This document shows positions 17,911 through 20,315 of a DNA stretch of 48,977 bases, piece after piece (position 1 is the first letter of the stretch; every line of letters starts with the position of its first letter). The stretch spans positions 1-48,977 of the forward strand of contig JAUVHO010000007.1 in the NCBI GenBank assembly GCA_030593295.1, written 5' to 3'. The notes under the pieces were generated by a model. It worked only from the letters and a program-made list of their open reading frames with translations, had not been told where the DNA came from and did not search any database. The translations under genes were made by a program, and so were the position numbers. Source of the stretch: Methanomassiliicoccales archaeon. GTDB lineage: Archaea; Thermoplasmatota; Thermoplasmata; RBG-16-68-12; SOIM01.

Positions 17911-18123
17911 TTGGCGGATGAACCCGATACAACTGAAGGTGTTCCTTTGGAAACGGGGAAGGTCTATCTGGCCAGAATAGGGGACTCGGGCGAGACCGGG
18001 GAAGGTCTTGCCAATCTGAATGGTCATCTCGTCTTCGTTCAAGGAGCTCGACCCGGGCAAGATGTCAGGATTAAGGTCACCAAGGTATTCGGGCGGTTTG
18101 CCTTCGGGGAGATTGTCAAGTAG
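17911..18123 (+). CDS. TRAM domain protein
   Basis: A 70-residue stand-alone TRAM domain (GKVYLARIGDSGETGEGLAN, then HLVFVQGARPGQDVRIKVTK and FGRFAFGEIV), the small RNA-binding beta-barrel found in many euryarchaea. Such proteins bind RNA and act as chaperones or cold-response factors. The start is TTG; an aaggag Shine-Dalgarno lies about 10 nt upstream, and the nearby ATG is out of frame. The gene follows the aminopeptidase by 58 nt but has its own TATA-like stretch (agttaaataac). Confidence 0.85.
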   Translation: MADEPDTTEGVPLETGKVYLARIGDSGETGEGLANLNGHLVFVQGARPGQDVRIKVTKVFGRFAFGEIVK

Positions 18124-18143: not shown

Positions 18144-18159
18144 CGTTTTGGTCAAAACG
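18144..18159 (+). terminator. Possible terminator hairpin after the TRAM gene
   Basis: A perfect 7-bp inverted repeat (cgttttg, gt, caaaacg) lies 20 nt after the TRAM stop and is followed by a short T-run (cattttaacg). Its U-tract is weaker than those of the two hairpins farther downstream. Confidence 0.3.
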
Positions 18160-18301
18160 TCATTTTAACGAGGGAACTTTTTCCGCCTTGGGTTTTTGTT
18201 ATAAGTCCTCGAACTTGGTAATCTTACACAGTTATAACACCCTAACATGCCAACAAACTGCATTAGCGAAAAGTTTATATCCGCATCCCCTAATTATCAT
18301 T

Positions 18302-18371
18302 TGCTTATCTAAGCATCCCTCCACAACGAGGCCGTTCAGCTTCTTTTCTTTCTGAACGGCCAACTTTTTTT
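18302..18371 (+). ncRNA. Candidate small RNA 1 with anti-SD-like CCCUCC and U-tract hairpin
   Basis: A TATA-like box (gtttatat, 18273-18280) would place a start near 18302-18306. What follows has no reading frame but clear RNA structure: a small hairpin (tgctta-tc-taagca, 18302-18315), an unpaired ccctcc (18317-18322), then a perfect 10-bp stem (ggccgttcag, 12-nt loop, ctgaacggcc; 18330-18361) followed by seven T residues. This could instead be only a terminator, but it lies 200 nt past the TRAM gene and the T-run is on the plus strand, so it does not serve the convergent tautomerase gene. Candidate RNA 2 has the same design. Confidence 0.5.
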
Positions 18372-18444
18372 CTTATTGTCTGATTGATAACATGGCTTTC
18401 GCTCGTCCCTTTGTTTCAAAATGATTCAGAGAGCGTTTCCAAGC

Positions 18445-18624
18445 TCAGTCAGAAAGGATATTCCCTGATTGGGCCCAGTTCTCCGGTGAGAGATCCTCGA
18501 AGATTATTGTGATATGGTCAGGAGGAGCCTTCGCAATTCTGACAATATCGTCCGTGATCGCTTTAGCAAGCTCTCTTTTGACATCCTCCGTCCTCGGGAA
18601 CATGGTCACTCTTACAACAGGCAT
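18445..18624 (-). CDS. 4-oxalocrotonate tautomerase family protein
   Basis: A 59-residue protein beginning MPVVRVTMFPRTEDVKRELA. After Met removal, Pro1 is the catalytic base of tautomerase-superfamily enzymes, and the following pattern (AITDDIVRIAK, PPDHITIIFEDLSPENWAQSG) matches small 4-OT-like proteins, which form hexamers and catalyse keto-enol tautomerisation. The substrate is unknown. An aaggag Shine-Dalgarno lies about 8 nt before the ATG on the minus strand. The gene stands alone between the two candidate small RNAs. It is short but the family length (about 60) is normal. Confidence 0.85.
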   Translation of the reverse strand: MPVVRVTMFPRTEDVKRELAKAITDDIVRIAKAPPDHITIIFEDLSPENWAQSGNILSD

Positions 18625-18828
18625 TTAGGACACTCCTTGTATGAGGGCGGTATTCGGCGCGGTTTATTTCAAAGTGTCGAAGATTCATCGCCTGGCAGTC
18701 GGGGACACCTCGGCTGAACCATATTTACCTCCGATTATAGTGCGATCGCACTACCGTTTCCAGTCCGAGCCAGTCCTCTTTATGTCGTGCCGAAGAAAGG
18801 TTTAAATAGATTCTTCTCTAATATGTTA

Positions 18829-18893
18829 AACGGGTGTTTGAATGGGCAATCTCCCCCCTCCTAGAAGATTTCCCCGTTCAACACCACTTTTTT
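18829..18893 (+). ncRNA. Candidate small RNA 2 with C-rich loop and U-tract hairpin
   Basis: A TATA-like box (gtttaaata, 18800-18808) points to a start near 18828-18833. The transcript would form a long stem: 18833-18846 pairs with 18873-18885 (13 pairs, one bulge), continued by aatct/agatt (18848-18852 with 18866-18870), and ends in six T residues (18888-18893). The apical loop is C-rich (cccccctccta) and could pair with Shine-Dalgarno sequences such as ggagg. It resembles candidate RNA 1 in layout. No short reading frame with a start is evident. It lies about 90 nt before purD, so a transcription-attenuating leader for purD is an alternative. Confidence 0.5.
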
Positions 18894-18983
18894 CTTACTC
18901 TACTAGCGATTCTCTGCTGATTGCAGACCAAGAAGAGACCAAAACCTATAATTCTCTCAATGGATATTAGGCATAGTGGTACC

Positions 18984-20315
18984 ATGAAGGTTTTGAGCGT
19001 GGGAGGAGGAGCAAGAGAGCATTCAGTCGTCGAGGCTCTCAAGAGAAGCAATGCTGAGATATTCTCGGTCATGAAGAACAAGAATCCCGGTATCGCAAGC
19101 GCTTCCGTCGAGTTCGTCCTCATGGACGAATGCCAAGTGGAGCAGGTTGCTGACTGGGCGATCTCCAAGGGAGTGGATATCGCGGTCATCGGGCCCGAGG
19201 GCCCACTGGGAGAAGGTCTCGTGGATGTTCTGGAATCCAAAGGGATACCCTGCGTCGGTCCCTCAAGGGCCGCGTCCCAGATCGAGATATCCAAAGAGTA
19301 TGCCAGGGACCTCATGAAGAGGAACAACATACCTGGCTACATTGAGCACCGGGTGTTCGACAACATCGATGAGGTCATGCCGTTCCTGGAGGAGTTCGGG
19401 AAGGACGTGGTGGTGAAGCCCATCGGACTCACTGGAGGCAAGGGTGTCAAGATCATGGGAGAACATCTGCACAGCCTCGATGACGTTGTGGAATACTGCA
19501 GGGAAGTACTGGAGAACAAGATAGGCGGTGAGGCCAGGGTGCTCATAGAAGAGAAATGCGTAGGTGAGGAGTTCACACTTCAGGCGTTCTGCGATGGCAA
19601 GACGCTGTCCCCGATGCCGGCTGTCCAGGACCACAAGAGGGCCTACGAGGGCGACGAGGGACCCAACACCGGTGGAATGGGCTCCTATTCAGAGTCAGAC
19701 GGCCTGCTTCCGTTTCTTTCCAGGGCCGAGTATGACGAGGCTGTCGGGATAATGCAGAGGACCATCGATGCGATGAGGGAGGAGGGCACTCCATACAAAG
19801 GGATTCTCTACGGCCAGTTCATGCTGACGGCTGACGGGATGAAGTTGATTGAATACAATGCCAGGTTCGGTGACCCTGAGTCGATGAACGTGCTTCCGAT
19901 ACTCCAGGACGATTTCCTGGCCATCTGCCAGGACATTGTTAACGGCAGCCTGAGCGCGGCGGTCCGTTTCGACAACAAGGCGACCGTCGTCAAGTACGTG
20001 GTCCCGATCGGTTACGGTATCGAGTCACGGTCGGGTGAGAAGGTGCTTCTGGACGAATCATCGATCAAGAACACGGGTGCGGAGCTCTATTATGCATCGG
20101 TCAACGAAGAGGGCGGACAGATATACACGACCACATCCAGATCGCTCGGGATCGTTGGCATTGCCAGCACCATAACGGACGCTGAGGTCATTTCGGAGGA
20201 AGGCCTCAAGTTCGTCGGCGGGAACGTTTTCATGAGGCACGACATCGGAAAACCTGACAGCATCAGGAAAAAGGTCGAGAGGATGGAGAACATCAGGGGG
20301 AGTCGATCAGCATAG
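18984..20315 (+). CDS. purD: Phosphoribosylamine-glycine ligase
   Basis: A 443-residue GAR synthetase, the ATP-dependent second step of purine synthesis. The family N-terminus MKVLSVGGGAREHSVVEAL is clear, as are AVIGPEGPLGEGLVDVLE (about 71-88), GPSRAASQIEISKEYARDLM (about 92-111), the ATP-grasp loop VKPIGLTGGKGVKIMG (about 138-153), and NTGGMGSYSESDGLLPF plus the metal-site EYNARFGDPE. ATG 18984 is chosen by homology; the in-frame extension from 18921 is unlike the family. A TATA-like acctataatt (18943-18952) lies 32-41 nt upstream. The M20 peptidase gene follows immediately. Confidence 0.95.
   Translation: MKVLSVGGGAREHSVVEALKRSNAEIFSVMKNKNPGIASASVEFVLMDECQVEQVADWAISKGVDIAVIGPEGPLGEGLVDVLESKGIPCVGPSRAASQIEISKEYARDLMKRNNIPGYIEHRVFDNIDEVMPFLEEFGKDVVVKPIGLTGGKGVKIMGEHLHSLDDVVEYCREVLENKIGGEARVLIEEKCVGEEFTLQAFCDGKTLSPMPAVQDHKRAYEGDEGPNTGGMGSYSESDGLLPFLSRAEYDEAVGIMQRTIDAMREEGTPYKGILYGQFMLTADGMKLIEYNARFGDPESMNVLPILQDDFLAICQDIVNGSLSAAVRFDNKATVVKYVVPIGYGIESRSGEKVLLDESSIKNTGAELYYASVNEEGGQIYTTTSRSLGIVGIASTITDAEVISEEGLKFVGGNVFMRHDIGKPDSIRKKVERMENIRGSRSA

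Follow-up and report, generated by a model that had tools for sequence, protein, structure and literature searches.

Two predicted small-RNA families with an unpaired CCUCC word in an order of soil and sediment archaea

The window (the whole stretch of 48,977 nt that was analysed) carries two short plus-strand elements, one on each side of a tautomerase gene. They represent two new, previously unlisted families of predicted small RNAs, RNA-1 and RNA-2, and both loci are very probably RNA genes. Their status as such is decided by conservation throughout the order, the multicopy state of RNA-1 and the covariation of the stems, and it agrees with the proposal of an earlier note made from the window sequence, as related genomes keep both stems, with compensatory changes, together with the CCCUCC word. 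The same note had treated the two loci as one kind of element, which could not be upheld: judged by the genome searches, RNA-1 and RNA-2 are unrelated families and not copies of each other.

Anatomy of the two loci

RNA-1, predicted to be a small RNA some 70 nt long (18303–18373, ends predicted), belongs to a multicopy, order-wide family. Read from the 5′ side, the locus consists of a TATA-like box (TTTATATC, 18275–18282), the stretch GCTTATCTAAGCATCCCTCCACAACGA, a hairpin with a covarying 10-bp stem (arms GGCCGTTCAG and CTGAACGGCC, 18330–18361), a 3-nt spacer and a T7 tract (18365–18371), the last presumed from direct reading and from the T-tract statistics of the copies to be the terminator. 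The near-invariant unpaired seed (the TAAGCATCCCTCCACAA region, 18311–18327) holds CCCTCC at 18318–18323. RNA-2, the representative of a second order-wide family, is predicted to span about 62 nt (18832–18893, ends again predicted) and follows a TATA-like box (TTTAAATA, 18801–18808) recognised by direct reading and in orthologues; it has a stem of 13 bp, interrupted by one bulged T, then AC and a T6 tract. Inside the loop of this stem lies CCCCCCTCC (18853–18861), within a conserved C-rich segment (CAATCTCCCCCCTCCTAG, 18847–18864) that has its CCCTCC at 18856–18861. Minimum-energy folds leave CCCTCC unpaired in both RNAs, as the earlier note had claimed, and the TATA-like boxes that it reported at both loci are present. 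Its description of stems of 10 and 13 bp followed by six to seven U is right as to the stems and the tracts but not as to their junction, the T-tract abutting neither stem. A 111-aa ORF does overlap RNA-1 but is only 85 and 72 aa long in close relatives, as expected if it is a chance frame. A perfect, operator-like 12-bp palindrome (GTGCGATCGCAC, 18740–18751) was seen about 50 bp 5′ of the RNA-2 TATA box and is absent from the corresponding sites in the related genomes G001 and G002.

Folding z-scores were −5.4 for RNA-1 (0 of 200 shuffles equally stable) and −3.2 for RNA-2 (2 of 200). As a generic scan of the surrounding 10 kb gave no excess of terminator-like structures (5 against 8.8 expected), single-sequence structure is weak evidence on its own, and the case for RNA genes rests on comparison between genomes rather than on folding. 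The whole window, RNA-1 and RNA-2 included, gave no match to any Rfam 15 family at gathering scores, and a scan of 18150–18960 returned just a chance-level snoRNA match elsewhere in the region (E up to 5). C/D and H/ACA guide RNAs were considered and rejected, no boxes being visible by eye in the conserved segments and no Rfam guide family being found at the site.

Conservation and distribution of the two families

When the window's own genome was searched at the DNA level, six further places matched the RNA-1 element alone. The first covariance model was built on seven copies, and by covariance model this genome holds eight, so that the scan for further copies which the earlier note had recommended was productive for RNA-1 but not for RNA-2, of which the genome search found one copy. 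Positive genomes of the order carry 1–16 copies of RNA-1. The flanks are unlike among many of these copies, and GCTTATCTAAGCATCCCTCCACAACGAGGCCGTTC...GAACGGCC is largely retained in near relatives. Of the stem cells in 114 matches (96 distinct rows), 98.5% are paired, six of the eight modelled pairs show changes on both sides (0 of 500 shuffles score as high) and sliding the stem partner by 1–3 columns lowers pairing to 22–60%; it should be noted that the alignment was fitted to the covariance model, which biases these counts in favour of structure, and that three weak matches (L104, L080 and L105) are of doubtful membership. The unpaired seed is better conserved than the stem: AAGCATCCCTCCACAAC is nearly invariant across 69 non-redundant copies and the hairpin loop drifts.

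The position of the TATA-like box is also fixed across RNA-1 copies, the best match lying 34–46 nt 5′ of the seed in 50 of the 69 non-redundant copies (shuffled controls gave a mean of 12 and a maximum of 20), and from this spacing transcription would be expected to start near the 5′ edge of the conserved block. At the other end, 83 of the 91 distinct copies have a 9-nt stretch with at least six T. Archaeal termination is signalled by U-tracts and, as the earlier note had it, hairpins are not strictly needed (PMC8716108), so that the RNA-1 stem presumably serves the RNA itself. With this TATA spacing, this T-tract and the mostly intergenic position of its copies, RNA-1 shows the sequence features of an independently transcribed intergenic small RNA.

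The covariance model for RNA-2 was positive in 13 of the order's 37 genomes, and the family is mostly single-copy. RNA-2 occurs in families f1, f3, f4 (genus g9), f5 and f6, the last of which has RNA-2 and no RNA-1; five genomes of genus g5, also in f4, gave no match at the syntenic position even in an unfiltered search. Its loop, CAACCTCCCCCCTCCTTGAAACCC, hardly varies in the families other than f1 and is slightly changed within f1; the covariation in relatives that the earlier note had proposed to check is present here as in RNA-1, with both-side changes in seven of the 13 pairs and 0 of 500 shuffles as high. A TATA-like sequence lies 5′ of the orthologues examined.

Several RNA-1 copies depart from the common form. 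In f4 the element commonly occurs as two tandem copies spaced by about 150 nt; at L079 (~1990–2076, in G003) a single hairpin is preceded by two tandem seeds, both reading CATCCCTCCACAAC and separated by about 25 nt. Divergent copies with a weakened stem adjoin a HEPN-domain gene at L016 (1501–1566, G000) and L058 (2039–2104, G001). Exact seeds beyond the covariance-model list occur at L252 (~1019), which has lost the usual stem, and on the minus strand of L253 (~1047), which retains a GC-rich hairpin and T-tract.

The refined covariance model detected RNA-1 in 34 of the order's 37 genomes including the window's own (33 of the 36 others) and in none of the 363 genomes from the rest of the class; when 390 genomes were drawn from the phylum, every additional positive belonged to the order. 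An exact pattern, made of the seed and the commonest stem start and therefore favouring near relatives, was matched over 84,980 species only in MAGs of four labels (Thermoplasmata, Euryarchaeota, Methanomassiliicoccales and Ca. Thermoplasmatota; including soil isolates EA_* and RBG_19FT_COMBO_69_17). IMG/VR holds no exact copy of the seed. To our knowledge few archaeal small RNAs have been characterised so far, and for this order none is described in Rfam or in the literature searched. From record names and sample sources we infer that the order is GTDB RBG-16-68-12 (Thermoplasmata), an order of soil and sediment archaea that has been named Ca. Angelarchaeales (PMC9038741) and Ca. Yaplasmales (PMC9239135).

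Gene neighbourhood and the segment junction at RNA-1

The layout TRAM – RNA-1 – purN ... RNA-2 – folD/purD is conserved across families. RNA-1 lies directly 3′ of a stand-alone TRAM-domain protein gene (17911–18123 in the window, plus strand, PF01938), a place kept in four or more families; in f4 and f5 a GAF gene separates the two, and in f3, f4 and f5 a convergent purN comes next after RNA-1. RNA-2 precedes purD in f1 and f3 (18984–20315 in the window, plus strand; PF01071, PF02844, PF02843) and folD in f5 and f6, folD having been identified by Pfam in one f6 locus and elsewhere by the appearance of the translation. The same-sense folD or purD begins 66–121 nt past RNA-2 in f1, f3, f5 and f6. 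As several loci have TATA-like sequences after RNA-2 and ahead of the following gene, and as the folD start is roughly 600 nt away in f4-g9, the arrangement indicates that RNA-2 is no strict leader. Because the neighbourhood is conserved across families, the window locus appears to be where both RNAs stood ancestrally, and the tautomerase gene (18445–18624, minus strand, PF01361), which among the loci compared occurs at this site in f1 only, looks like an addition made in f1. Away from the window locus the neighbours and orientations of RNA-1 copies vary.

There is a REARRANGEMENT at RNA-1: the left flank of the window matches G001 through one RNA-1 copy and the right flank matches it from a second copy onward, so that G001 has a 6.8-kb segment between two copies (L197, 3773–10664) where the window has a single RNA-1 at the junction (18303–18385). 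The segment encodes a TPR protein, a NosD/beta-helix/fn3 protein of 1242 aa and two frames that match nothing in Pfam. The same two-copy arrangement, 6.4 kb apart, is found in G002, and the corresponding segment is absent from the loci of G003 and G004. As the segment junction lies inside RNA-1, the comparison suggests that RNA-1 copies may act at least as homologous recombination sites, the difference reflecting either loss in G000 or gain in G001 and G002. Five copies in G003 (L066–L069 and L071) share flanks of some 220–1370 bp at 90–97% identity, which suggests that segments holding RNA-1 copies and their promoters were duplicated recently; several of the five lie near contig ends. In f1 many copies adjoin genes for large secreted-type repeat proteins (NosD/beta-helix, PQQ propeller, PKD, BNR, FG-GAP; by plain listing L010, L011, L012, L014, L046, L052, L053, L056 and L059), and six f1 copies lie 43–44 nt 3′ of long same-sense genes of the secreted type or similar.

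Possible modes of action and known systems

The word common to the unrelated RNA-1 and RNA-2 is the C-rich CCUCC. As the window's own assembly has no recognisable 16S, the tail was taken from relatives: it reads GGATCACCTCC in five genomes of the order, contains the CCUCC anti-Shine–Dalgarno (SD) word and, also given as GGAUCACCUCC, matches the C-rich word of both RNAs, which in their folds thus present an unpaired segment matching the 16S tail. SD usage in the window genome is partial, 18 of 35 long ORFs having GGAG or GAGG before an early start in what is a loose count with several clear GGAGG; purD beside RNA-2 has no obvious SD. The main action of the two RNAs may well be to mask SD sites in trans, as the earlier note had suggested, since the anatomy, the 16S tail and the GGAG/GAGG sites fit. 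It is put forward with reserve because targets were not found and because the conserved segment (about 17 nt in RNA-1, 24 nt in RNA-2) is longer than the SD complement. A search for complements of the RNA-1 seed, allowing up to three mismatches in its own genome and up to one in eight genomes, gave no evident dedicated target, and exact 13-nt antiseed matches were nearly all the antisense of RNA-1 copies, the remainder being scattered and patternless. Pairing of the seed with rRNA was computed separately and discarded, the sites and strands being inconsistent between species.

On this proposal the two independent families would be separately transcribed as regulatory RNAs of about 62–75 nt, starting some 20–30 nt 3′ of the TATA box and ending at the U-tract behind the stable hairpin. 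The unpaired segment centred on CCUCC would pair in trans with the SD regions of SD-led mRNAs and so block 30S binding. Hairpin and U-tail would confer stability and perhaps offer a docking place for an RNA chaperone, for which the adjacent TRAM gene is a mere suggestion. With up to 16 RNA-1 copies under unlike promoters, various conditions could feed a common silencing activity.

The excess of the conserved stretches over the SD complement would also suit a doubtful but possible alternative, in which the C-rich segment binds a protein (KH, TRAM or Sm-like, for example) and the RNAs are sponges or RNP scaffolds. Proteins of the TRAM type serve as RNA chaperones in archaea (PMC6705878) and a stand-alone TRAM gene adjoins RNA-1 in several families, but its adjacency is no evidence for binding, and the RNA-1 and RNA-2 segments differ outside the C-rich word, so that a common site would need the C-run itself. 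We give rather little credence to a wider reading in which RNA-1 would be an order-specific global translation regulator, an anti-SD mimic multiplied into up to 16 genes with differing promoters, and in which its copies would double as recombination sites that move surface-protein gene cassettes about the genome, dosage and surface repertoire co-evolving.

That the RNAs might be cis-acting leaders or attenuators for purine and one-carbon genes is very unlikely. The short distance from RNA-2 to same-sense folD or purD and the adjacency of purN to RNA-1 in three families would fit such a role, but RNA-1 and purN are convergent, and the more distant folD in f4-g9 and the intervening TATA-like sequences count against it for RNA-2. 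Given the diverse neighbours and orientations of its copies, RNA-1 lacks the constant same-sense site of a leader or riboswitch; RNA-2 departs from one less strictly. More improbable still is the view of RNA-1 as a DNA repeat, mobile or REP-like, that yields no regulatory RNA: the hairpin, the dispersed copies, the recent flank-inclusive duplications in one genome and the copy at either end of the 6.8-kb segment are offset by a window locus that stays beside TRAM in four or more families, a seed conserved above a covarying stem and TATA boxes at fixed spacing ahead of copies with unlike flanks, and an unsystematic look noticed no terminal repeats or target duplications. Stem and T-tract, and the six f1 copies just past long genes, could be read as mere terminators of upstream genes, but this is scarcely credible when archaeal termination does not strictly require hairpins (PMC8716108) and the best-conserved part is a single-stranded segment with a TATA box upstream.

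Masking of SD sites in trans is the action we prefer for both RNAs. If true, it would be a clear case of archaeal anti-SD regulation, embodied in two strongly covarying families, of which one is amplified and each has the anti-SD word and a purine/one-carbon site near TRAM; the covariance models of RNA-1 and RNA-2 make existing metatranscriptomes searchable at once. Among known systems the SmelA075/SmelA099 RNAs of Rhizobiales, with CCUCCUCCC anti-SD loops, resemble RNA-1 in being short and multicopy in one genome, and have a conserved CCUCC-type anti-SD motif, variable stems and a presumed block of the ribosome-binding site (RBS) (PMC3927594). They are bacterial, however, and carry the motif in the loops of several repeated hairpins, whereas RNA-1 has one hairpin with the motif in a 5′ single strand, and no Rfam match links them. 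NmsRA and NmsRB of Neisseria are tandem siblings, as RNA-1 is in f4; their anti-SD regions are UC-rich, single-stranded and located both inside hairpins and between them, and their repression of metabolic genes has been demonstrated (PMC5362039); likened to RNA-1 and RNA-2 by description, they differ in being bacterial and in having two copies and three stem-loops. The third comparison is with sRNA154 and sRNA41 of Methanosarcina mazei, archaeal intergenic small RNAs for which RBS masking has been reported on the glnA2 and ACDS mRNAs (PMC5867862), and which, compared by description and Rfam scan, belong to another archaeal lineage and have other targets and structures.
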